NCBI GenBank assembly: GCA_016929015.1
Contig: JAFGJQ010000467.1
Location: 1-43,952, forward strand
Source: Phycisphaerae bacterium
GTDB taxonomy: Bacteria; Planctomycetota; Phycisphaerae; UBA1845
DNA length: 43,952 bases
Direction of reading: 5' to 3'
The notes under the pieces are model-generated. The model worked only from the letters and a program-made list of their open reading frames with translations, searched no databases and was not told the origin of the DNA. This document shows, piece by piece, positions 2,363 through 31,568 of the stretch; within the stretch, counting starts at the first letter, position 1, and each line of letters starts with the position of its first letter. Made by a program: the position numbers and the translations under genes.

Positions 2363-3286
2363 ATGAATCATGTCTTCGGGCCGGTGCCGTCGCGCCGTCT
2401 GGGTCGCTCGCTGGGCGTGGACCTGGTGCCCTTCAAAACCTGCACCTATGACTGCATCTACTGCCAGTTGGGCCCCACCACCGTCAAGACCGCCGAGCGG
2501 CAACAATTCCTGAGCCGGGACGCCGTGCTGGAGGAAATCCGGCGGAAGCTGGAACCCAGGCCGGACTACATCACGTTCAGCGGCTCCGGCGAGCCGACGC
2601 TCCATACGGGGCTCGACGAGTGGATCGAGGCGATTCGATCCATCACGGACGTTCCCATCGCGGTGCTCACGAACGGCTCGCTGCTCTGGCAACCCCAGGT
2701 CCGCCGGGAGCTTCTCCAGGCCGACCTGGTCGTTCCCTCGCTGGACGCCGGTGATGCGGAGACCTTCCGGGGCGTCAACCGGCCGTGCGATGCGATCTCG
2801 TTCGAGCAGATGGTGGACGGCCTGATCGCCTTTCGCGAGGAGTTCACCGGCCGGTACTGGCTGGAGGTCCTTTTGCTGTCCGGCTACACGTCCGACGAGC
2901 CCGCGGTCGAGAAGATTGCCGCGCACGCCAAACGCATCCGGCCCGAGCGGATCCAGTTGAACACGGCCACTCGTCCGCCGGCCGACTCACTGGTGGAGCC
3001 GGTGCCGCACGAGCAACTGGTGGAACTGGCCGGTCTGTTTGAGCCCGCCGCCGAGGTCATCGCGGATTTCGACCATCCCGCTCCCGATGCGGGCCTGGGC
3101 GTAAACAACGAAGACATCCTGACGCTGCTGCGTCGGCGCCCCTGCACGCATCCGGATGTTGCGGCCGCCCTGGGCCTGCACCGCAACGAGGTGCTGAAGT
3201 GCCTTGATACATTGATCGACCGCGGCCTGGTCACCCGAACACCCCGCAGCACAGCCATCTACTACCGCGCAGCGCAGCCGGAGTGA
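2363..3286 (+). CDS. Radical SAM protein of the COG0731 (TYW1-like) group with C-terminal winged helix
   Basis: The 307-residue protein opens with FGPVPSRRLGRSLGVDLVPF, followed by the radical SAM cluster motif CTYDCIYC (CxxxCxxC) and the SAM-binding GSGEPTLH segment. This N-terminal signature is diagnostic of the COG0731 group, related to wyosine tRNA synthetase TYW1 but without an assigned function in most bacteria. The last ~60 residues (LLRRRPCTHPDVAAALGLH... LIDRGLVTR) look like a winged-helix DNA- or RNA-binding domain. It follows the NifX-like, metallo-hydrolase and peroxiredoxin genes and could share their metal or redox theme, but the 94-bp gap leaves operon membership unproven. Confidence 0.88.
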   Translation: MNHVFGPVPSRRLGRSLGVDLVPFKTCTYDCIYCQLGPTTVKTAERQQFLSRDAVLEEIRRKLEPRPDYITFSGSGEPTLHTGLDEWIEAIRSITDVPIAVLTNGSLLWQPQVRRELLQADLVVPSLDAGDAETFRGVNRPCDAISFEQMVDGLIAFREEFTGRYWLEVLLLSGYTSDEPAVEKIAAHAKRIRPERIQLNTATRPPADSLVEPVPHEQLVELAGLFEPAAEVIADFDHPAPDAGLGVNNEDILTLLRRRPCTHPDVAAALGLHRNEVLKCLDTLIDRGLVTRTPRSTAIYYRAAQPE

Positions 3287-10382: not shown

Positions 10383-11420
10383 ATGGCAACAGCCAAGGCA
10401 GACCTGGATTGGAAGAACCTCGGGTTCGGCTGGCGCAAGACTGACGCCAACATCCGCTTCACGTTTGGCGACGGGAAGTGGGACGAGGGCGTGCTGGTTT
10501 CAGACGATGTCATCCCGCTGCACATCGGCGCCACGTGCCTGCACTACGGGCAGGAGTGTTTCGAGGGGCTCAAGGCCTACGAGACCAAGTCGGGCGACGT
10601 GGTCGTCTTCCGCATCGAGGAGAACGCCCGCCGCCTGATCCGCTCGTGCGAGCGGATCATGATGGAGCCCGTGCCGGAAGAGATGTTCATCCATGCCGTG
10701 TTCCGCGTGGTGGATGCGAATCGCCGGTTTGTACCGCCGTACGGCACCGGCGGCACGCTCTACATCCGCCCGTTGCTGCTGGGCACCACCGGCGCCATGG
10801 CCCTGCGTCCGTCCGTCGACTACCTCTTCGTGGTTTTCGTGACGCCGGTCGGGCCGTATTTCAAGACGGGGTTTACCCCCGTGGATCTGATTGTCGAGGA
10901 CGACCTGGACCGGGCGGCGCCCCGGGGCGTCGGTCACGTCAAGGTCGGCGGCAACTACGCGGCGGGCATGAAGGCCAGCACGCGGGCCAAGGCAAAGGGC
11001 TACGCGGACGCGCTCTATCTCGACCCGCGAGCCAAACGGTTCATCGACGAGGCCGGCCCCGCCAACTTCTTTGCCATTACGCGGGACCGGCAGTACGTCA
11101 CGCCCGACAGCGAGTCGATTCTGCCGTCCATCACCAACAATTCGCTGATCACCCTGGCCGAGGACATGGGGCTGCGCCCGGTCCGCCGGCCCGTGGATGT
11201 CGAGGAGATCTTCGAGTTTGCCGAAGCGGGCTGCTGCGGAACGGCCGCGGTGATTACACCCGTCAAGTCCATCACGTACCGCGATCGCGTCGTGGTTTAC
11301 TGTCAGGACGGCCGGCCGGGTCCGGTTTGCACGGACCTCTACCAGCGCCTGACCGCGATCCAGTGCGGCGACGCCCCGGACCCCTACGGCTGGGTGCGCC
11401 GCGTGCCGGAGTGCGGCTGA
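10383..11420 (+). CDS. ilvE: Branched-chain amino acid aminotransferase (class IV)
   Basis: The 345-residue PLP enzyme catalyses the last step of Leu, Ile and Val synthesis (and the first of their breakdown), transferring the amino group between branched 2-oxo acids and glutamate. Type II BCAT features are LHYGQECFEGLKAYE, the arginine-rich RIEENARRLIRSCERI segment, the PLP lysine in GHVKVGGNYAAGM, and the phosphate-binding EAGCCGTAAVITPV. Start at the ATG at 10383 with AAAGGAG at 10368-10374; the frame upstream gives no family sequence. It is monocistronic by spacing: the next gene has its own promoter. Confidence 0.95.
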   Translation: MATAKADLDWKNLGFGWRKTDANIRFTFGDGKWDEGVLVSDDVIPLHIGATCLHYGQECFEGLKAYETKSGDVVVFRIEENARRLIRSCERIMMEPVPEEMFIHAVFRVVDANRRFVPPYGTGGTLYIRPLLLGTTGAMALRPSVDYLFVVFVTPVGPYFKTGFTPVDLIVEDDLDRAAPRGVGHVKVGGNYAAGMKASTRAKAKGYADALYLDPRAKRFIDEAGPANFFAITRDRQYVTPDSESILPSITNNSLITLAEDMGLRPVRRPVDVEEIFEFAEAGCCGTAAVITPVKSITYRDRVVVYCQDGRPGPVCTDLYQRLTAIQCGDAPDPYGWVRRVPECG

Positions 11421-11537
11421 GCGCACCTGACTTGCGTGTCGGATACGGGCCGAACCCCCGTGCGCCGCACGTGGGCATCTTTGCCCGCATCCGGCGCATC
11501 ATGCCTTCCTTTTGGGCGTTTTTGGGCTTCTGCGTTT

Positions 11538-14221: not shown

Positions 14222-15028
14222 TCACGAGCCGGTGAAGGCGGCCTGGAAGGCGGCAAAATCGGCGAGGTCCACGTCCTCGTCTTCGTCCAGGTCTGCCCGA
14301 CGGAATGCGTCGGGCGTGCAGTACATCGGCGGGGTGGAAACGCCGGGGCCCGAAAGACATTCCTGAAATGACAGGTAATCGGACAGGTCCACGGCCCCGT
14401 CGTCGTTCAGGTCGCCGTGGATGCCCACCCGCACGTAAACATGCTCGTCCGCGTAAAACAGGCTGCGGTCGCTTGCTCTTCGACCCGCGACGGCGAACAC
14501 CAGGTCGTAATAGTCAATCGCGGCGGTCGGCCCGACCTCCAGGTGGAAGACAAAGAGCGTCGGCCCCAGGCCCCATGTGTACGCAATGACGGGGTCGGTG
14601 TAGTAGTACGCCTGCTCGCCCCATTCCGGCCAATCGCAGTCGCCCGTGTATTCCAGGACTCCGCCGTTCTCCACGCCGGCGAACCGAAGGCGGCGCAGCT
14701 CAACCGCATATGTGTCGTCCGGCGCCAGATTGGTCAACTCGATAACCAGCGTCCGGGTCCGGTCCGGCGAGGTGCGGAATGTCGGTAGAGGCCCGCGATC
14801 CGGCGCGCCGGTGGCGGATTCATCCGGATCCAGCAAGCCGTCCGCATCGATGACGGCCAGCGAGTCGGTCTGCCATTGGCCGTGGCAGCTCAGGCAGTTC
14901 GCCCCCCAGGCGGGTTCGGCCATCGCGGGGGTGGTGACGGCGACCAGAACGATCATCGAGAGCATCGGCAAGGTGCCGCCGACGCGCGTCGTCCGAAGGC
15001 CCTGCCATGCCGAAGGTCTGCGGCTCAT
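14222..15028 (-). CDS. Secreted single-haem CXXCH protein with C-terminal dockerin-like repeats
   Basis: The last gene of the hydrogenase operon overlaps the large-subunit stop codon by ATGA (15025-15028). The product of 268 residues has an export signal (LPMLSMIVLVAVTTPAMA) followed at once by ANCLSCHGQW, a single c-type haem site. The middle is beta-rich (LVIELTNLAPDDTYAVELRR, TLFVFHLEVG). The C-terminus carries two calcium-binding dockerin-like loops, GDLNDDGAVDLSDYLSFQEC and ADLDEDEDVDLADFAAFQAA, the style frequent in Phycisphaerae. It probably sits outside the inner membrane and may transfer electrons to or from the hydrogenase or anchor it to other secreted proteins. No characterised homologue is recognised. 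Confidence 0.8.
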   Translation of the reverse strand: MSRRPSAWQGLRTTRVGGTLPMLSMIVLVAVTTPAMAEPAWGANCLSCHGQWQTDSLAVIDADGLLDPDESATGAPDRGPLPTFRTSPDRTRTLVIELTNLAPDDTYAVELRRLRFAGVENGGVLEYTGDCDWPEWGEQAYYYTDPVIAYTWGLGPTLFVFHLEVGPTAAIDYYDLVFAVAGRRASDRSLFYADEHVYVRVGIHGDLNDDGAVDLSDYLSFQECLSGPGVSTPPMYCTPDAFRRADLDEDEDVDLADFAAFQAAFTGS

Positions 15029-16443
15029 CGGCTCACCTGCCTTCCCGGGCGGACGGCGTGGACGGCACAGGCCAGGCACGGGTCGAACGAGTGGACCACG
15101 CGAAGCACCTCGCTGGGTTGCGAAAGATCGTCGAGCGGCACGCCGACGAGGGCCGCCTCAATCGGCCCGGGCACGCCCGCATCGTCACGGGGCGAGGCGT
15201 TCCAGTTGGTGGGCGTGATGACTTGGTAGCGGCTGATCACGCCGTCCTCGATGCTCAGCCAGTGGCCCAGGCCGCCGCGTGGGGCCTCGGTCAGCCCGAC
15301 GCCCGCGGTGGTTTGCGGAACGCTGCCCGGCTGGACCACCGGGGCGCCCGGCACAAGTTCGTCCAGCCAGCCATTCATGGCATTGGCGAGTTTCATCGCC
15401 TCCTGCGCCCGGGCCAGAATGCGGTCCATGGCGGAAATGCCGCGGGTGTACTCGCCGTTGACGGTCATGCGGGCGAGCGGGCCGAGCTCGTACGGCGTGG
15501 TTCCGTAACGAGGGGCCTTCAGCCACGAGTATCCGTCGGGTCTGTCGCGGTCCGGCTCCGTCAGGCCGACGGACGGGTGTCGGTTGCCGCTGGCCGGCGT
15601 GTACCACGAGCGCGCCACCTGCTCCGTAATCTGCTGTGGGTCCGTCGCGGCCGGTGTGCCGTTGACGCGCCGCCCGCGGGCGAAAAGCTTGCTTGTTCCC
15701 CCGGCGTTCAGGTCAAACGCGCCGAACGTCAGCAGGTTTCCGCCGCCCTGGCCGAGTTGGGAATACGCGGGGAACGCGGTTGCCAGCAGATTGGCGTCCG
15801 GCAGGTAGACGTTCTGGATGAACGCGCGCAGCTCGTTCAGCAGCGTGCGGAAGGCCGCGACGTTCTCCGCGCTGACCTGCTGCGTACACCCGCCCGCCAC
15901 GAACGACCCGACACACGGCAGTTTTCCCGCGAAGATCGCGCCCATCTGGTGGGCCTTGCGGCGCGCGGTGAAGGCCGAAACGTAGTGCTGCACGAGCGTG
16001 GCCGCCGCGGCCCCGCCGATGAGGTCCGGGCGAACGTAGCGAGGCGTCCAGGGTGACGCGTCGAGCAGCCCCGTCGTATCGATGAAGTCCGGCAGCGACA
16101 GGTGATAAAAGTGCAGTACGTGCGACTGGATGTAGTTCGCGCCCAGCACGAGGTTCCGCAGATTTCGCCCGTTGTCCGGGGCGACAATCCCAAACGCATC
16201 CTCCAGGGCCAGGCAGGCGGCCAACGCGTGCGAGACCGGGCAAACGCCGCAGATGCGCTGGGTGTACAGGGCGGCGTCGCGCGGGTCGCGCCCGGCCAGC
16301 ACGATCTCAAATCCGCGGAACATGGTGCCCGCACAGCGGGCCTCCGTCACCTGCTGCTGCCCCCCCACGGTGTCGACGGTCACCTGGATCTCCAGGTGCC
16401 CTTCGATGCGGGTGACGGGATCGATGGTCAGGGTCGTGGGCAT
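15025..16443 (-). CDS. [NiFe] hydrogenase large (catalytic) subunit
   Basis: The 472-residue subunit binds the Ni-Fe centre. The N-terminal L1 motif is RICGVCPVSH (Cys65, Cys68) and the C-terminal L2 motif is DPCLACAVH (Cys456, Cys459, His462); all four nickel ligands are cysteine, so it is not itself a NiFeSe enzyme. RIEGHLEIQV and MFRGFE agree with the uptake-type group 1 enzymes. Ten residues (AVRPGRQVSR) follow His462 and are expected to be cut off by a maturation protease, which is not encoded in this window, nor are hyp genes. It follows the small-subunit gene by 3 nt and is exported with it. Confidence 0.95.
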   Translation of the reverse strand: MPTTLTIDPVTRIEGHLEIQVTVDTVGGQQQVTEARCAGTMFRGFEIVLAGRDPRDAALYTQRICGVCPVSHALAACLALEDAFGIVAPDNGRNLRNLVLGANYIQSHVLHFYHLSLPDFIDTTGLLDASPWTPRYVRPDLIGGAAAATLVQHYVSAFTARRKAHQMGAIFAGKLPCVGSFVAGGCTQQVSAENVAAFRTLLNELRAFIQNVYLPDANLLATAFPAYSQLGQGGGNLLTFGAFDLNAGGTSKLFARGRRVNGTPAATDPQQITEQVARSWYTPASGNRHPSVGLTEPDRDRPDGYSWLKAPRYGTTPYELGPLARMTVNGEYTRGISAMDRILARAQEAMKLANAMNGWLDELVPGAPVVQPGSVPQTTAGVGLTEAPRGGLGHWLSIEDGVISRYQVITPTNWNASPRDDAGVPGPIEAALVGVPLDDLSQPSEVLRVVHSFDPCLACAVHAVRPGRQVSR

Positions 16444-16446
16444 GGC

Positions 16447-17379
16447 TCAGTCCTTCGCCTCCGGCCTCGCTGAATACACGAAGAACGGCGACATGCCGTC
16501 CGGGAAGGTCGGCTGCACGCAGCCCAGGCAGGGGCCGCCCGAGCCCACGCACCAGTTCACGCCGTATTCACCCGGTCCGCGGCTGTTCCACTTGCGCATC
16601 GGGCAGTCTGAGTAGGTCTTCTTGCCCTTGCAGCCGAGGTGCTCCAGGCAGCCGTCACTGCCCAGCTCCGTGGCGAACGTCGGCTGGCCGCACTGCTGGT
16701 GCCGGCGGTAGCAGCGGTCGTGGACGCGTACGCCAAAGTACGAAAGCGGGCGGCGGTGCGCGTCCAGCGGCGGCACGCGGTTGTTGGTCAGCAGGTACGT
16801 GACCGTGCCCACAAGCCAGTCCGGATGACAGGGGCAGCCGGGCAGGTTCACCAGCCGCGCATCGGCCCCGAGCAGTTGGCCCACGCCTTGGGCCTGAGTC
16901 GGGTTGGGCGCGCCGGCCGTCACGCCGCCGTAGGCCGCGCAGGAGCCGACGGCCAGAATGAAGGCCGCGTTCGGGGCGGTTGTCTGCACGGCCGCTTCCA
17001 TCGTCGTGTTTGACCAGGCCATGCAGTACCGGCCGGCCGACCCGGTCGGAATGGCGCCTTCGATGATCAGGATGTATCCTGGCTGGGCCGCCGCCGCCTG
17101 GGCGGCAGAAACGGCCAGATCACCGGCGGCGGCCATCAGGTTGCTCTGAAACTCCACATCCAGCGTGTTCACCAGCAGATCATCCACCGTGGCAAAGTGT
17201 ACGCTGTTCAGGAATGAGACGGCACAGCCGTCGCAGCCGGCCCCCTGCAGCCAGATGACACGCGGATGGCCTTCGCCGCGAAGCGTCCGGCCCAGAGCGG
17301 CCAGAGCCGACGGGGTCAGTCGTCCGGCCACCGCCGCCGCCGCCGCGGCCTTGAGAAAATCACGCCGGGTGATCCTCAT
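16447..17379 (-). CDS. [NiFe] hydrogenase small (electron-transfer) subunit, Tat-exported
   Basis: The 310-residue subunit carries iron-sulfur clusters that pass electrons between the Ni-Fe site and an external partner. A twin-arginine signal TRRDFLK followed by an Ala-rich stretch directs folded export. Proximal cluster ligands lie in QGAGCDGCAVSFLN, GSCAAYGG and LPGCPCHPDW. Medial and distal cluster ligands lie in HDRCYRRHQQC, DGCLEHLGCKG, DCPMRKWN, NWCVGSGGPCLGCVQPTFPD. There is no C-terminal membrane helix, so a membrane cytochrome b partner is not required. The ATG overlaps the stop of the upstream cytochrome gene (ATGA), indicating coupled translation with that protein as a likely redox partner. 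Confidence 0.95.
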   Translation of the reverse strand: MRITRRDFLKAAAAAAVAGRLTPSALAALGRTLRGEGHPRVIWLQGAGCDGCAVSFLNSVHFATVDDLLVNTLDVEFQSNLMAAAGDLAVSAAQAAAAQPGYILIIEGAIPTGSAGRYCMAWSNTTMEAAVQTTAPNAAFILAVGSCAAYGGVTAGAPNPTQAQGVGQLLGADARLVNLPGCPCHPDWLVGTVTYLLTNNRVPPLDAHRRPLSYFGVRVHDRCYRRHQQCGQPTFATELGSDGCLEHLGCKGKKTYSDCPMRKWNSRGPGEYGVNWCVGSGGPCLGCVQPTFPDGMSPFFVYSARPEAKD

Positions 17380-19781
17380 GGGTTCGTCCCTCCGTCCATG
17401 TCGGGCCCGGCCGATCGCCAGGGCGGAATGCCGAAGAAGATCTCCGTTTCGTCGAGCAGTACCCGGGCGTACGGCGAATTGTGGGCGCCGAGCGACCGGT
17501 CGGCCTGGACGAAACGGTAGTTGAACGTGGCCGCCTGGTACGCGGGCAGATCCGGCGGAGGGATGAGAGCCGGATCGACGTACAGCGGATCGGCCGGATC
17601 GTATCGCTGTGCGATCGCCGCAAGCCGGGTCTCGATCTCCTCTCGCGTCATCTCAATCAGGATGGTGGCGGTGGCTTCGCTGTGGCAGGGCAGGCACGCT
17701 CGGCGATTGGCCTCGAACGTGTGGCCGCTGTTGACCGGCTGTTGCGGGCCGCCGTAGGGCTCTTCGTGTACGTGGCAGGCGGCGCACTCCTTGGGGATGT
17801 CCCACCAGTGCCGAGCATAGGGTCCGTTCATCGGCTCGCTCTGCAGCGTGTAGCCGCCGGTGCTGTGCAGCATTTCCGCCTGGGGCTGTTGAGGCACCTC
17901 GCCGGAGCCGGGAGTGCCCATGCTATGGCACTCGGCACAAAGCTCGTGAGCGGCCCGGCGGAGTTGACCCTCGTGCGGTCCGCCGTGCGGGTTGTGGCAG
18001 GCCGCGCACTCCAGATTCAGAGACACGTCAAACACGCCCGGCAGGTTGTCCGGCGGGGCCAGGCGGTACTCGGTGGAATGACAGGCGAGGCACGCCTGTT
18101 CCACGTTCGGCTCAAACTGGATGTTCGACAGGGCAAACGCATGTTGCGACGTGGACCACTGCTCGAATTGCGGGTGATGGTTCTCGCCACAGAGCCCGTG
18201 GCACGACTGGTGGCACGCCCCGCACAAAGTGGAGGCCAGGTCCCGCGTCAGGCGCACGTTTGCCGGGTCCGCCACATGGTTGCTGCCCGGGCCGTGGCAG
18301 TTCTCGCACTGGATGCCCGCCAAATGAGGGGTCGTCTCCAGGTCGACGAACCCGCTGGCCTTGCCGTAACCGACGGAATGGCAGGGGAAGCACAGGGCGT
18401 TGTTCCCCTCTCCGCCGGCCACCAGGGTGTCAAATGCGGTGGCGTGGATGGTGCTGATCCACTGGCCGTGTTGCGACGCGTGGCACTGCGTGCAGGTCGT
18501 TGCACCGACAAAAAGGGGCGGGCTGACCAGCGGACCGGTGAAATTCATCGTCTGGAGGGCGTAGTCCGCCAGGTCCACGTCGCCGTCATTATCCACGTCG
18601 GCGTTGGTGAAGGCATCGGGATCACAGGTGCCCGTGGGATTCGGCATGCCCGGGCCGCCGAGGCAGTCGGCCAGAAGCACGTAATCCGCGACGTCGACGT
18701 CGCAGTCGAGGTCCATCGTGCCGAGCGATCGGCCGAAGCGGTCCGCGCCGGCCGGGGCCGGCACCTGTGGGCAGGAGTCGCACACGTCGCCCACGCCGTC
18801 GAGATCCTCGTCGGCGGTGTTCACGTGGTGGAGCCACGGGCAATTATCGCAGATGTCGCCGATGCCGTCTTCGTCGGCGTCGGCCTGATCGGCGTTCGGC
18901 GCGGCGGGGCAGTTGTCGCAGATGTCGCCGACGCCGTCTTCGTCGGCGTCCTCCTGGAGCGGATTGTGGCGGTGCGGGCACAGGTCGGAGGCGTCGGGCA
19001 AACCGTCGCCGTCCTCGTCGCCGGGCAGCGAGAGCAGCGGCCAGCACTTCACCGCGGCCTGGTAGACGGCGGCCGGTCCGGTATCCGCCGGTTCGGCGGC
19101 CCAGGCAATGAGCTTGATGTTGCCGGGGTCAGCCCAGCTCACAGCGTCAAAGGTCAGCACGCTCTCGACGGTGTGGGAGCTGCCGGGCGTCAACACGACG
19201 TCCTGCTCCGGGACCGCCTGCTTGAAGCCGTTGCGGTGATAGGGCTTGGTGGCGGGCCAGTGATCCAACACCTGCGCCGTGAACACGCGCACGGTTTTGG
19301 CGGTGCCCGTGGGTTCCAGGCCGACCGTCGTGAATACGTTGTAGGTGGCTCCGCCGGCCGGTTCTGCCCGGACGCTCAGGGTGACGTCGGTCGGGATGGC
19401 GCGGGCGGGCAGGAAGTGGTTGGCTCGATAGATGGTGTATTGCTGATCCTGGTCATGAACGGAGCCGGTCACTTTGTCCATGCCGTCGAAGAAGGCTGTC
19501 GGCGTGTACTGGCCCCCGAGAAAGGCCCACCGCGCATTACCCCAGGGCGTACTAACGCTGTCGTACAGTTGGTATTGTACGAAGGCGAAGGACTCCGCGT
19601 AGACATCCACCAATCGTTCGAGCGCAGGACCTGCGTCAGCGCAGGAGCCTCAGTACCGATTGGTGAACTCCTCGCAAAGCACCACGCGCGTTGCGGCCGG
19701 CGCCGGCGACACCGCCAGGGCGCACGCCGCGACGACACCGAGACGCGCCACGGCGCCCAATGCTTCCAGAAGCTGCTTCAT
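17376..19781 (-). CDS. Selenoprotein candidate: Omp28/thioredoxin-like domain fused to calcium repeats and a nine-haem cytochrome c
   Basis: Read from the ATG at 19779-19781, the frame runs 801 codons with one in-frame TGA at codon 44 (19650-19652). Residues 1-30 are a signal peptide (MKQLLEALGAVARLGVVAAC, ending APAA). Then TRVVLCEEFTNRY-[TGA]-GSC aligns the TGA with the first Cys of the EEFT..C..C redox motif of Omp28-like thioredoxin folds, giving UxxC; YTPTAFFDG later supplies the cis-Pro. Residues ~255-340 are thrombospondin type 3 calcium repeats (DADEDGVGDICDNCP) and ~350-415 two dockerin-like loops. Residues ~425-700 hold nine CXXCH haem sites plus one CHQSCH. It heads the hydrogenase operon. 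An annotation that ignores recoding would start at the TTG at 19613 and lose the signal peptide. The selenocysteine reading is inference, strongly supported by the SECIS-like loop. Confidence 0.85.
19615..19652 (-). promoter_or_regulatory. Bacterial SECIS-like element adjoining the in-frame TGA
   Basis: After the TGA (19650-19652) the message can form a short stem CGC/GCG with apical loop AGGUCCU, extendable by a G-C pair around a bulged A. The sequence GCAGGUC occupies positions +16 to +22 after the stop (19634-19628). From memory, E. coli fdhF has the same GCAGGUC at the same distance from its UGA. The loop GGU contacts SelB in known bacterial SECIS elements. A competing hairpin (CCUGCG-CUGA-CGCAGG) is also possible, so a fold calculation is needed. 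Confidence 0.75.
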
Positions 19782-25483: not shown

Positions 25484-25550
25484 CGGCGCGAGACATGACG
25501 CGGGCACGGCAGCGGATTACCGTCCTGCAGGTCGAAAGAAGGAGTGAGTG

Positions 25551-28500
25551 ATGGAGATCATCCTGATCCTGCTCTTCGTCCTTGCGGCGATCGTCCTGGT
25601 CGGACACGGCATCTGGGCCGGCGTGGCCTGGTTGGTGCGTGGTGGTCGGAGCCGGCATTCGCCTGCCCGCTACGAGCCGACCCTGAGCGATGACCGTGCC
25701 GCCACGGCCCGGCTTCTCCGGCACCTGCGATCTCGCGGAGCGATCGACGATGAGACGTACGAGCAGGTCATGCGGGCCGTCACGCAAGACATATACGGGG
25801 GCGAGCACTCGGTGGAAACGTGCTTGCTGCGAAGGCGCGAGCGCGAAGTCTGGCCCGACATCGCGCCGCCGATGCCGGCGCCAACGCCGCGAACCGCCGA
25901 GCCACCCCTTGCGACCATTCCAACCATCGAGCCGCCTGCCCCGCAGCCGGTCCGCGCCGAATCGTCACCCACGCGACCACCGACGCAGCCCTCATGGCTC
26001 CAGCGGGAACTCGAAGCGCCGCGCTGCGAGCCCCCACCTCCACCCCGCCGGCCGTTCAGCGAAATCCTGGCCGGCTTCATGGCGGAGAAGAACATCCGCT
26101 GGGGGGAACTGATCGGCGGGTTGCTCATCGTGTGCTGCTCGGCTGCCCTGGTGATCAGCCTCTGGTCGCGGATTGAGGCCATCCCGGTCCTGAAGTTCGT
26201 GATCTTCACGGCCATGACCGCGGCGCTTTTCGGAGCCGGGCTGTTCGTATACTACCGCTGGAAGATCCCCATGACCGGCCAGGTCGTGCTGTTCATCGCC
26301 ACGTTCCTGGTGCCGCTCAACCTGCTTGCCTTTGCGGCTTTCTCTCTTCACGGGCCGGTCCCTGGGGCCTGGACCACACCGATCGAACTCGGAGCCCTCG
26401 TGCTTTTTGGATGGCTCTTGTTTCTGGCGGCCCGCGTTGTCATGCCGGCCGGACCGCGGCTTTTTGCCGGCGCCGTCGTGGGCATCTCGGCGTGCTCGCT
26501 TGCGGTTCGATTCACGACGCCGCTGGTGGGCTGGGTGCTCTGGGCCGTGGCCCTGCTGCCCGTGGTGCCGTATGTGGCAGTGACGGCCGCTTCCTGTCGA
26601 GGGCTGTTCCGGGATCGGCCGATCGGGGAGGAGGTCGCCAGGCGGCTCTTTCTGCAACTCGGCGTGTACACATTCTCCTGCCTCGTGCCATTCGGGCTGA
26701 TCATCTGCGAATCCGGGCTTGGGGGAGGAGCGCTGCGCCTGCTTTCGCCCCTGGTGAGCGCGCTGGCCATCCCGGCGCTGTTCACCGGCGTGCTCCTCTG
26801 GCTGCGGCTTGCGCAGGAAGCGTCCCCGCAGACTCGAACCGCTGCGGCAAGCGTGGCGATCGTGGCGGCATCCGTGGCCGTGCTGGGGGTCGGTCTGGGC
26901 TGGCCGGTGCCGGCACGGCTCATCCCCGCAACGCTGGTCGTCAGCCTGGCGATGGCGGCGGTGAGTCTCGTGACTCGGCACCCGGCCGCGCATGCGTCAG
27001 CCGCTTCGGGGTCCACGGTTGCGTGGGTGTTGGGCGTGCACGTTTTTTACGGTCTCGATTGGTCGACCCCCACGGCGAGTGGCGTGCTCAGTGCCCTGCT
27101 TTCGGCTCGAACGGGCCAGGCGCTGGTTGTCGCGGCGGCGGTGTGTGCGTTGTCCGCGGCGTGGCTGGCCCGGCAAGGTCGGGGCGTTCTTGCCCGGTCA
27201 TACGCGGGGACGGCTCTGGGTATCGCGACGATCAGCCTGACACTGGTGACCGTGTACGGCTTCGGCCGAGCCGGAGACCCCTCGCACGTGACGTGGATAT
27301 ACCTGGTGTACGCCGTGGCTGCGTTCGTGGCGGGCGGTCGGGTGAACTCACCGCTTGGCGTGTGGTGCGGCGGCATTCTCGGCCAGATGGCGATCGTCCA
27401 GCTCTTGGTCTATCTGTGGCCGGTCGGCGAGTACGCCTGGCCGACCGCGCTGCTGGTCGGGGCGAGCGCTTGCGCGGCGGGTGTCATCGTACTGAGGCTT
27501 GCCAGGGTCGGTGATCGCGCCATCCGGTTGTACACAAGACCCCTGGCCCAGGTGTGTGTAACAGTATCCCTGGTCGCCGCGATCCGGCTGGGCAACCTGC
27601 TGCCGACGGAAACGCTGAATGGATTCGCGATCCGAACCGCATGGCTGTCTGCCCTGTGGCTGGGGCTGGGGCTCGCGATGCGGTGGTCGGTGTTGCTCGC
27701 CGGAGCGCAGATCGCCATGGCCGGTGCCGGTTGTGCGGGCATGCACGCCCATTTGCAGAGCCGATCGTGGTATGCGGAACTCACATCGCCGTTGGGCGAG
27801 CCCTGGGTCTGGCAAGCCCACGCGGTGGCGGTTGGCGCGGTGTGCCTGGTGTGGGCCATTGTCCGGGCGGCAATCCGATGGAAGATATCCGGAAATGACC
27901 GTAACCGGGATGGCGAGAGCGGCAACCGCCGGCCGTGGACGTGTGCTGTGCAGAGACTCTTGAATCCGGAGGTCCCGCTTGCGGATCGCTGGATGATCCT
28001 CCTCGTGGTGGCGGCGCTGGTCATGCTTTCCGTCTGGAGCGTGGGGCCTGGCATTGTCGCGGAGCACGCGTGGGGGCGCGTACCGGCCACCGCAGGCCAC
28101 TACGTCCACGCGAGCGGTGCGGGATCCTGGGTGCTGCTCGGCGTGCTGGCGGCGGTGTTGCTGCTCGCATTGGCGGAGGGTCTTCGAATTCCTCCGGTTC
28201 TCGGGCTCGTGACGGCGGCGGCCTGCGGCGTGGGGTTGTCGGCGGCGCGATTCGAGAGTCAGCATCAGGTCGTGACGGTGCTACGCTGGTTGGATGCGTC
28301 GTTCTTCCTGGGGCTTTCTGGCGCAGTCTGGCTGGGCAGGCAGTGGAGCGGGCGGATTCGGGCCTGGCTGCGTTCGGACATCGGGGAATCGGCGCTTGCT
28401 GACTACGCATCGACGCTTCTGTGTGTTCTTTTCGCGCTGCCGGCTGCGGCGCTGACGCTCACTTTTGCTCACGCGGCCGCGGTGGGCCGTGCGCTCTCGC

Positions 28501-31500
28501 TGACGGACATCACGGAGGTCGGCCTTCACGTGCTGCTTCTCGGGCCTCCGTTTCTGGTAGCCGTCGGACTGATGGGCTATGGACGCGCAACGCGACGACC
28601 GGAGTGGGCCGTCGCCACGACGGTGCTCGCCGGCGTGGTTGTGACGGTCACGGAATTGTGCGTGGTTCACCGAGCCCGTGTCGGCGTCTCGTACTCAACC
28701 CTGATCTGGCTCGTCCAGTTGAACGTGATCGTGGCAGCGGCGATTGCCGTGGTCTGGCGCGCCCTTCTGGGCCGGCGGAACGCTCCGGCGGGGTCTTTGG
28801 CGTATCCTTCCTGGATTCTGCTATTCGGGCGCGCCGCATCGGGACTCGTATTGTCCGTGGCGGCGGCAGACCTGTGGATTCGCCCCGGGGCGGTATCGGC
28901 CGGCGTTGCCGCTGCCGGAACGGCGTGGGGCTTCTTTGCGGTGATGCTGGTGGAGGGTGCACTGTGGAGTGGTGCCCGTCGAGCGGGAGCAGGGCAGGGA
29001 GAGCACACGGCCAACGTGTGGGTGCTGTTCGGCGCCGTGCTTCTGGCTTGCGGGCTGGCCCGCTATGACACCGGCAACTGGCTGTGCTTCCATATGCTGA
29101 TGGCAGGTCTTGCGGCGGCCGGGTGGCTTCGGATGTACCTGGGGGCCCGAGAGGCGCGCCGCCTCCTCGGCTCGGGTTGGCGGGAGACGTTCGAAACGGC
29201 CACCGCACGTGCAGCCGGAACAATGGACACGATCCATCACGACGTAACCTGCCGGTCCTGTGGTTACAACCTCCACGGCCTGTCACCGGCAGGGCGGTGT
29301 CCGGAATGTCACGCGACGATCGCGAGTTCGCTGGAGGCCGTCGTGGACCGCCTGACCCCTCGTTGGGCCGGACGAATGCTCCGCGTCCGAACCAACGCCG
29401 CGATGGCCGTTCTTGCGTGTGCGGCGCTGGCAACGGCCTTCGCCGTGCGCGCCGCCATCAACGATCCGCAGGGTCCCTGGTGGTCCGTCGCGGTGCTGGC
29501 CGGGTCCGGCGCGCTTTGCATGGTCCTGGCCGGCTGGGCCCCGCGCCGCGCCATTGCCTATGCCGGAGGCGTGGAGATTTGTGCTGCCGCGAGTATCTGG
29601 TGGATCACGGAGTTCGCGAGTGGACCGGTCTGGCGTTTTGCCGGCGGTCTGGCCGAGTTGGTCAACGTCAACGTCATTGCGTTGGCAGCGGGGGGCCTGG
29701 TGTGGCTTGGCGTGGAGCGAGGGATTCTCCGCGGGCAACTGACTGCCGACAAAGCCGGAGCCTGGCCCGCGTTTCATCGCATCGCCGCCTGGGCGGCGGC
29801 TGCAGCCGTTCTGCTGCTGGCCGGTGCTGCTCTTTGCGATGTTGTGATGGGCCAGTCGTTCGCGGGCTGGACGACCATGCGGTGGTTTGCGTGGGGAGCC
29901 GCGGTCGTCTTGATGGTGTCGTGCCGGCTCGACACGACGTTTCGACACCAGGGAGCGGGCCTGCACGTGCTGGGTTTTTCGGCTGTGGTATTGGCCTTGG
30001 TCCAGGCCGGCCTGCCCTCACGCACGCTGGTTTTGGCGATGTCGCTGGCATTGGCCGGGTATGTGCTCTTCACAATGCTGGTGTGGCGATGCTGGGCCAT
30101 CGTCGAGCGCGATTCATGCCGGGAGCATAAAGACCCCGCGTGGCTGGTCGTCGCCAACGGACTGCTCGTGGGCCTGGCCGTGCTGCTCGGCCTGTACGTG
30201 AGTTTCACCCATCCGGGGGCAACGGCCCGGCTGGCAATAGTGGCATCGCCGATTCTCTGTGCCGCATCGGCCGCGATTGGTGTCAAGGGCCGTCGCAGCG
30301 GCCCAATGCGGACGGTCGTCGCCGGCCTGATGACCACCGCAGTCGTTCTGCTGGCCTGGTCCTGGGTGTCGCCGGGCGTGCCGGCTTTCCTGCTTCAGCG
30401 GGCGATCGGCGTGGTGGCGGCCGTCGCGTTCGTAGCTGTGGCGTCGAGCCTGACGAGGCGGATTGACCGGCCTGGTCACTGGGCGGCGGCTGCGGCACGC
30501 AGTCTGGCGGGCTCTTACGTGCTGGCGGGCGCCGCGCTGCTGTTGACCATCGGCGTTGAAGCCCAGTCGCTCTGGCTCCGGCAGCCGGTTCACCTGTCGG
30601 CGGAGGCCACGGCCTCCCTGATTGGGGCGCTGGCGTTGCTGATCGTTTGCTGTGTAGTCTTCGCGGTGCGCGACTATCTCGACCCGCTGCGTTTGCGCCC
30701 GAGTTGGAGAGGGGCCTACGTCTACCTCGCGGAAGGCCTCGCCGGAGCGCTCGTCCTGCACGTGCGGGCGACGATGCCGTGGCTTTTCTCCGGCGTGATC
30801 ACCCAATACTGGCCGTTGCTCATCATGGCTTTGGCGTTCGCGGCCGTTGCGGCGGGGGAAATCTGTGCTCGACAGGGGTTGCACGTTCTGGCGCGCCCGC
30901 TCGGCCGCTCGGGCATGTTCCTGCCCGCGCTCAGCACGCTTGAACTGTTCCTCGCCTCGTCGCAGGTGCACTTCTCGATTGTGCTGGTAACGACGGGCGT
31001 GCTGTACACGGTGCTGGCCGGGCTGCGAAAGTCACTCCGATTGGGCCTGCTCGCCGGGCTGGCGCTCAACGGAAGTCTGTGGTACCTGCTGGCTCACAGT
31101 CCGGGCCTGGGCCTCACTCAGCATCCCCAGTTGTGGTTCATTCCGCCGGCGCTGGCGGTACTGGTTGCGGGGCATCTGAATCGAGCCCGCTTGAACGCCG
31201 ACCAACGGACGGCCGTGCACTATGTCTGCGTCTTCGTCATTTATCTTTCTTCGGCAGCCGACGTGTTTCTCGTCGGCGTCGCGCGGGCTCCATGGCTGCC
31301 GCTCGTGCTGGCGGGGCTGTCACTGGCGGGGATCTTCGTCGGTTTCGTCTCCCGTATCCGGTCGTTCCTCTTTTTGGGAACCGGCTTCCTGTGCCTTTCG
31401 CTGTTGACGATGATCTGGCACGCCGCCGCCAACCTCGGCTGGACGTGGCTGTGGTACGTCTCCGGGATCGCACTGGGCGTCGGGATCATTACGGTCTTCG

Positions 31501-31568
31501 CGCTGTTTGAGAAGAAACGAGAGGAACTGAATGCCTGGATCGACGATATCCGGCAGTGGAACGGCTGA
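25551..31568 (+). CDS. Giant polytopic membrane protein with an internal zinc ribbon (2005 residues)
   Basis: The ATG at 25551 follows AGAAGGAG with 6-nt spacing. After one N-terminal helix (IILILLFVLAAIVLVGHGIW), residues ~45-185 are soluble, with a short-C-terminal-domain-like helix (RLLRHLRSRGAIDDETYEQV) and a Pro-rich linker. Then AEKNIRWGELIGGLLIVCCS begins dozens of hydrophobic segments running to the end. In the middle (about residue 1230) is a soluble zinc ribbon CRSCGYNLHGLSPAGRCPEC of a type common in planctomycetes. Giant proteins with this start occur in planctomycetes and resemble DUF2339/DUF2157-type membrane proteins in layout; the role is unknown. It lies 67 bp after the LexA-fusion gene and may share its transcript. 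Confidence 0.85.
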   Translation: MEIILILLFVLAAIVLVGHGIWAGVAWLVRGGRSRHSPARYEPTLSDDRAATARLLRHLRSRGAIDDETYEQVMRAVTQDIYGGEHSVETCLLRRREREVWPDIAPPMPAPTPRTAEPPLATIPTIEPPAPQPVRAESSPTRPPTQPSWLQRELEAPRCEPPPPPRRPFSEILAGFMAEKNIRWGELIGGLLIVCCSAALVISLWSRIEAIPVLKFVIFTAMTAALFGAGLFVYYRWKIPMTGQVVLFIATFLVPLNLLAFAAFSLHGPVPGAWTTPIELGALVLFGWLLFLAARVVMPAGPRLFAGAVVGISACSLAVRFTTPLVGWVLWAVALLPVVPYVAVTAASCRGLFRDRPIGEEVARRLFLQLGVYTFSCLVPFGLIICESGLGGGALRLLSPLVSALAIPALFTGVLLWLRLAQEASPQTRTAAASVAIVAASVAVLGVGLGWPVPARLIPATLVVSLAMAAVSLVTRHPAAHASAASGSTVAWVLGVHVFYGLDWSTPTASGVLSALLSARTGQALVVAAAVCALSAAWLARQGRGVLARSYAGTALGIATISLTLVTVYGFGRAGDPSHVTWIYLVYAVAAFVAGGRVNSPLGVWCGGILGQMAIVQLLVYLWPVGEYAWPTALLVGASACAAGVIVLRLARVGDRAIRLYTRPLAQVCVTVSLVAAIRLGNLLPTETLNGFAIRTAWLSALWLGLGLAMRWSVLLAGAQIAMAGAGCAGMHAHLQSRSWYAELTSPLGEPWVWQAHAVAVGAVCLVWAIVRAAIRWKISGNDRNRDGESGNRRPWTCAVQRLLNPEVPLADRWMILLVVAALVMLSVWSVGPGIVAEHAWGRVPATAGHYVHASGAGSWVLLGVLAAVLLLALAEGLRIPPVLGLVTAAACGVGLSAARFESQHQVVTVLRWLDASFFLGLSGAVWLGRQWSGRIRAWLRSDIGESALADYASTLLCVLFALPAAALTLTFAHAAAVGRALSLTDITEVGLHVLLLGPPFLVAVGLMGYGRATRRPEWAVATTVLAGVVVTVTELCVVHRARVGVSYSTLIWLVQLNVIVAAAIAVVWRALLGRRNAPAGSLAYPSWILLFGRAASGLVLSVAAADLWIRPGAVSAGVAAAGTAWGFFAVMLVEGALWSGARRAGAGQGEHTANVWVLFGAVLLACGLARYDTGNWLCFHMLMAGLAAAGWLRMYLGAREARRLLGSGWRETFETATARAAGTMDTIHHDVTCRSCGYNLHGLSPAGRCPECHATIASSLEAVVDRLTPRWAGRMLRVRTNAAMAVLACAALATAFAVRAAINDPQGPWWSVAVLAGSGALCMVLAGWAPRRAIAYAGGVEICAAASIWWITEFASGPVWRFAGGLAELVNVNVIALAAGGLVWLGVERGILRGQLTADKAGAWPAFHRIAAWAAAAAVLLLAGAALCDVVMGQSFAGWTTMRWFAWGAAVVLMVSCRLDTTFRHQGAGLHVLGFSAVVLALVQAGLPSRTLVLAMSLALAGYVLFTMLVWRCWAIVERDSCREHKDPAWLVVANGLLVGLAVLLGLYVSFTHPGATARLAIVASPILCAASAAIGVKGRRSGPMRTVVAGLMTTAVVLLAWSWVSPGVPAFLLQRAIGVVAAVAFVAVASSLTRRIDRPGHWAAAAARSLAGSYVLAGAALLLTIGVEAQSLWLRQPVHLSAEATASLIGALALLIVCCVVFAVRDYLDPLRLRPSWRGAYVYLAEGLAGALVLHVRATMPWLFSGVITQYWPLLIMALAFAAVAAGEICARQGLHVLARPLGRSGMFLPALSTLELFLASSQVHFSIVLVTTGVLYTVLAGLRKSLRLGLLAGLALNGSLWYLLAHSPGLGLTQHPQLWFIPPALAVLVAGHLNRARLNADQRTAVHYVCVFVIYLSSAADVFLVGVARAPWLPLVLAGLSLAGIFVGFVSRIRSFLFLGTGFLCLSLLTMIWHAAANLGWTWLWYVSGIALGVGIITVFALFEKKREELNAWIDDIRQWNG

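Follow-up and report, generated by a model that had tools for sequence, protein, structure and literature searches.

Selenoproteins that carry a UxxC redox motif in an Omp28-related domain were predicted in 2008 as the family GOS_C (PMC2398784), which a 2026 review lists with the NCBIfam model NF045500, 'Omp28-related selenoprotein'; an octaheme selenoprotein cytochrome family is tabulated there alongside ExtKL (PMC13188914). HBP35 of P. gingivalis has thioredoxin activity, in that it reduces insulin and needs both active-site Cys residues to do so (PMC2907840). Here, we report a gene in which a domain of this kind, with a proposed selenocysteine (Sec), is fused to a nonaheme c-type cytochrome within a hydrogenase operon. 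It lies in a 43,952-nucleotide contig of a Phycisphaerae bacterium (JAFGJQ010000467.1), referred to as the window. Sec decoding of an in-frame TGA, export of the resulting UxxC/nonaheme protein and hydrogenase-linked redox chemistry are together very likely the best explanation of the locus. A previous inspection of the letters alone (the sequence-only reading) knew of no described selenoprotein joining this fold to a multiheme cytochrome. This stands for the fusion and its operon, in that the open-access literature, exclusive of subscription papers and preprints, gave no account of a UxxC-multiheme fusion or of a link to hydrogenase; it needs amending for the Omp28-related UxxC selenoproteins, already predicted as GOS_C/NF045500. 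The component parts are known, and the domain architecture and operon context appear to be undescribed.

The window protein resembles GOS_C/NF045500 in the UxxC site, the thioredoxin-like fold and the Omp28-type region. NF045500 aligns to residues 23-292 (E 5e-25) and scores 88.7 bits, where curation sets the cut-off at 200; of 25 domain copies, 24 have a match to this model. That cut-off was reached in none of 392 sampled genomes of the phylum, and in the phylum-wide search with this profile most matches were confined to the repeat region after position 270. The N-terminal half is, as judged by profile alignment, a distant relative of the GOS_C/NF045500 family, from which the fused group differs in carrying nine hemes within a hydrogenase operon. 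The likeness to ExtKL lies in the combination of a selenoprotein with a multiheme cytochrome. The ExtKL model NF040886 covers part of the heme region only and scores 12.1 bits where 250 is the cut-off, and on this comparison the window protein is not ExtKL.

The selenoprotein coding sequence (17376..19781, - strand) comprises 801 codons when read through a TGA at codon 44 (19652-19650), giving 801 amino acids. The ATG start at 19781 is preceded by an AGAGGA-like ribosome site, and a signal peptide (residues ~1-29; 19695..19781) is found at the same position in homologues. VVLCEEFTNRY precedes the TGA and GSC follows it, so that residues 44-47 would form the redox motif UGSC (19641..19652), and 757 sense codons continue in phase to the terminal TGA at 17378-17376. 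The signal peptide, EEFTNRY, the TGA, GSC and the uninterrupted frame are thus all present as first described. Mechanical calling of open reading frames yields 17376-19613 with a TTG start, which would fit a TGA that is a true stop, a sequencing error or the mark of a decaying pseudogene, with translation starting downstream, for example at TTG 19613, to give a leaderless protein of 745 amino acids. A downstream start would, however, remove the signal peptide and truncate the thioredoxin domain, and nine c-type hemes need export. The window copy also aligns end to end with 11 other full-length copies, and the sequence is conserved in homologues both upstream and downstream of codon 44.

Homologues came from public genomes (21 loci, nearly all in Phycisphaerae or Planctomycetota) and from whole genomes of relatives. 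Strong matches to the domain in the order numbered 85 (E below 1e-50, stops counted by eye); 59 of them contained a single in-frame TGA and 26 were free of stops, while neither TAA nor TAG occurred in any. The codon itself was read in 58 distinct copies: 39 had TGA, 17 TGC or TGT (one TGC row, L121, is poorly aligned), one GGC (Gly) and one TAT (Tyr), and the stop fell in the same alignment column in all copies whose codon was read. The Gly and Tyr copies (L022, at 2579-3241 on the - strand, and L059) are possibly catalytically dead paralogues. The second Cys of the motif, three residues on, is retained by 38 of the 39 TGA forms and by 16 of the 17 Cys forms. When Sec and Cys labels were placed on the tree of the heme-bearing group and its relatives, four changes were obtained, of which at least two are forced by well-supported branches. 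The two states can also be neighbours, as in the adjoining paralogues of the domain at G000:C361:17075-20067 (L056, L065), whose active-site codons are TGA in one and TGT (Cys) in the other. Neither true stops nor sequencing errors nor decay would be expected to leave a pattern of one TGA or none in which the alternative is almost always Cys. We regard a stop, error or pseudogene with an alternative start as highly improbable and as contradicted by the recurrence of the TGA in many independent genomes, by Cys homologues that are open without a break from signal peptide through domain, and by conservation on both sides of the codon.

The source genome (Phycisphaerae-like, 5.8 Mb in 530 contigs, 92% complete) encodes the machinery for Sec insertion, and all of selA, selB, selC and selD, for which a search had been proposed, were present. 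selA (559 bits) and selB (324 bits, or 366 with a second piece) adjoin, the tRNA-Sec with anticodon TCA scores 69 bits and was called independently by ARAGORN, and selD occurs in two copies of 405 and 368 bits. The 368-bit copy (L018; G000:C318:17117-18037) has an in-frame TGA and the other (C94) has none; by virtue of this TGA, selenophosphate synthetase in its L018 form is probably itself a selenoprotein here. selA scored above its cut-off in 43 of the 50 genomes of the order tested, with or without the family, and is so common across the order that its presence does not discriminate carriers of the family. Four selA-negative genomes hold TGA copies, and these are 62-88% complete.

Downstream of the TGA lies a SECIS-like apical hairpin, CGCAGGUCCUGCG (19623..19635, - strand), with GGU at 19631-19629. 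The sequence GCAGGTC occupies nucleotides 19-25 counted from the T of the TGA, and E. coli K-12 fdhF has the same seven letters at the same place; direct comparison upheld the likeness to fdhF noted in the sequence-only reading. Unlike the fdhF SECIS, the window sequence is without a long lower stem and a competing fold is predicted: the lowest-energy structure pairs CCUGCG (nt 8-13) with CGCAGG (nt 18-23) instead of forming the GGU hairpin. We assume that the upstream bases of this competing pairing would be hidden under a ribosome halted at the UGA, and the segment from nt 15 onward does fold into the GGU hairpin. The folding energy of the window's own SECIS stretch (41-56 nt) did not differ significantly from that of shuffled sequences (z -1.0 to +0.1). 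Rfam model RF00031 had no match anywhere scanned, control genomes included, and so carries no weight here, and in an Rfam scan of the gene all matches stayed well below gathering scores.

The family as a whole was compared in a test in which amino acids were held fixed and codons reshuffled 5000 times, for 32 TGA forms and 11 Cys forms. In TGA forms the mean stem was 5.28 pairs against 1.92 +/- 0.32 in shuffles, and GGT was found at the fdhF spacing in 94% against 21%, neither value being attained in any shuffle (0/5000 for each). In Cys forms the stem (2.36 against 1.78 pairs) and GGT (36% against 18%) lay nearer to the shuffled values, and the two forms differed from each other with P = 0.0003 for GGT and 5e-6 for the stem. 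The loop-closing pair varies as GC, CG, TA or AT across TGA forms and is unpaired in 5 of 12 Cys forms. It is this family comparison, and not the single fold of the window, that decisively carries the argument for a putative SECIS; the SECIS-like loop proposed at the outset is thus supported across the family, while the energy of the window's own fold is unremarkable.

An open read-through frame is by itself silent on which residue is inserted, and the TGA could in principle be read as Trp or by near-cognate suppression. This has a negligible probability in our judgement, since the genome encodes Sec machinery including tRNA-Sec(UCA), since homologues have Cys rather than Trp at the codon, and since the GGU hairpin is selected specifically in the TGA forms. 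Codon 44 is almost certainly decoded as Sec, judging from these comparisons of sequence, and Sec is presumably present in the protein itself. The original assignment of this codon is thereby supported by the sel genes, by the hairpin test and by homologues with TGC or TGT, the Gly and Tyr copies being the only exceptions.

Residues 30-250 (19032..19694, - strand) are predicted to form a thioredoxin-like domain and an Ig-like domain of the Omp28/HBP35 type. The AlphaFold2 model of residues 28-250, built from 25 sequences, had a mean pLDDT of 96.1, while a full-length model (mean pLDDT 44) was set aside. The best match among solved structures was HBP35 of P. gingivalis (5y1a), which superposes over 212 residues with Z 22.3 and rmsd 2.6; next came 2axo (Z 19.2), and the second half of the modelled region matched the Omp28 domain 2r2c (Z 12.7). 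The two-domain fold shared with HBP35 and Omp28 is thus found in the predicted model; identity over the alignment is ~12%, and these proteins have Cys where the window protein would have Sec. To our knowledge, neither HBP35 nor Omp28 has c-type heme motifs. In the window protein the fold is followed by thrombospondin type 3 (TSP3) repeats (Pfam PF02412; residues ~255-340, 18762..19019), by a dockerin-like pair of EF-hands with a weak match (PF00404, E 0.023; residues 359-409, 18555..18707) and by a multiheme cytochrome region in which CxxCH occurs nine times (residues 430-700, 17682..18494), all on the - strand. The last of these was recognised from its motifs and from profile matches, and matches by sequence the solved structures 6i5b and 6qvm. 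The features named in the sequence-only reading, an Omp28/thioredoxin fold, a multiheme cytochrome and a hydrogenase operon, were all confirmed.

Twelve full-length fused copies were aligned, in which the others are 54-64% identical to that of the window and all nine CxxCH motifs are invariant; on this alignment the copies of the nonaheme fusion form one conserved group of orthologues. The selenoprotein stop overlaps, as ATGA, the start of a NiFe hydrogenase small subunit with a Tat signal (16447..17379, - strand), and the gene for a nickel-dependent large subunit follows (15025..16443, - strand), both recognised by profile matches. A small subunit gene lies directly 3' of the cytochrome gene in 10 of 10 relatives with enough flank, overlapping or nearly touching it and mostly by the same overlap, and in nine of the ten the genes of the large subunit and of a single-heme protein then follow; in the tenth, L027, the match covered no more than part of the small subunit. 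The single-heme gene in the window (14222..15079, - strand) has a product that its sequence predicts to be secreted, bearing one CxxCH motif and ending in a dockerin-like part; the true start of the gene is probably downstream of 15079, and it belongs to the conserved hydrogenase block, being found at the same place in relatives. In L026 a gene for a HycI-type maturation protease (10930-11469) is inserted between the large subunit and the single-heme gene, where the window operon has no room for one. The models closest to the operon subunits are those of NiFeSe hydrogenase (HysAB; NF033181, NF045518 and NF045520, with 566, 489 and 252 bits), but all scores are below the NiFeSe cut-offs (large subunit 566 against 600) and Cys takes the place of Sec. 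The hydrogenase was accordingly rejected as a second selenoprotein, the Sec position, at the first Cys of the C-terminal DPCxxCxxH (DPCLACAVH in the window), being Cys in the window and nine relatives. None of the upstream window genes tested was found in the fetched flanks of these relatives, so the conserved block seems to begin with the selenoprotein gene. Elsewhere in the window, an open frame of 2006 amino acids (25548-31568, + strand) had no Pfam match at E 1e-4, and a plasmid search gave no match.

We propose that SelB and tRNA-Sec would decode the TGA at 19652-19650 as Sec, guided by the GGU-loop hairpin downstream. The product would be exported with its UxxC thioredoxin-like domain packed on the Ig-like domain, as in Omp28 and HBP35, and followed by calcium-binding-type repeats and then the nonaheme cytochrome. 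Outside the cytoplasm, H2 would most likely be oxidised by the Tat-exported NiFe hydrogenase; electrons would travel along the nine hemes, and the UxxC domain may perform selenol/thiol redox chemistry on a partner, be it a disulfide, a peroxide or a metal(loid). That the protein is a thiol/selenol oxidoreductase is probable. Other paralogues have TGA in the same domain and no heme motifs, often with dockerin-like ends, which indicates that the basic job of the domain needs neither cytochrome nor hydrogenase; from its wide heme-free use, this job would be thiol/selenol chemistry and the hydrogenase link a specialisation. Electron flow from H2 to Sec, in this direction and by this route, is put forward tentatively, at somewhat less than even odds, and the opposite direction, a switch role or a maturation role are possible. 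A more specific version is rather unlikely, namely that electrons from H2 pass through the hydrogenase and nine hemes and, with no need for thioredoxin reductase or DsbD, directly reduce the Sec-Cys selenenylsulfide of the same chain and then disulfides, peroxides or metal(loid)s outside the cell.

The maturation role can be pictured from CcmG and ResA, thioredoxin-like reductants of apocytochrome c: with a UxxC domain and nine CxxCH motifs in one chain, the former might keep the Cys residues of the latter reduced for heme attachment. Most paralogues sharing the domain and its TGA have no heme motif, however, and we hold this role to be improbable. The protein could also be mainly a surface conduit of electrons from H2 to an external acceptor, in which UxxC would act as a disulfide switch in regulation, take part in adhesion or sense oxidative stress. 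A surface position is suggested by the TSP3 and dockerin-like modules, and 6i5b and 6qvm, matched by the cytochrome region, are presumably surface electron-transfer cytochromes. Yet every copy read in the fused group has Sec or Cys in spite of several changes between them, a retention that suggests catalysis over a passive part, and the conduit appears somewhat unlikely as the main function.

The locus adds a conserved architecture to the selenoproteins, in which a UxxC Omp28 domain is joined by a TSP3/dockerin-like linker to a nonaheme cytochrome. Genomes of this lineage hold up to several TGA-bearing copies of the domain, which plain calling of open reading frames would truncate. With natural Sec and Cys versions in a conserved hydrogenase operon, and a putative SECIS that is lost together with Sec, the group makes a good system for the study of Sec/Cys exchange, and also one suited to asking whether H2 can drive thiol/selenol chemistry via hemes.
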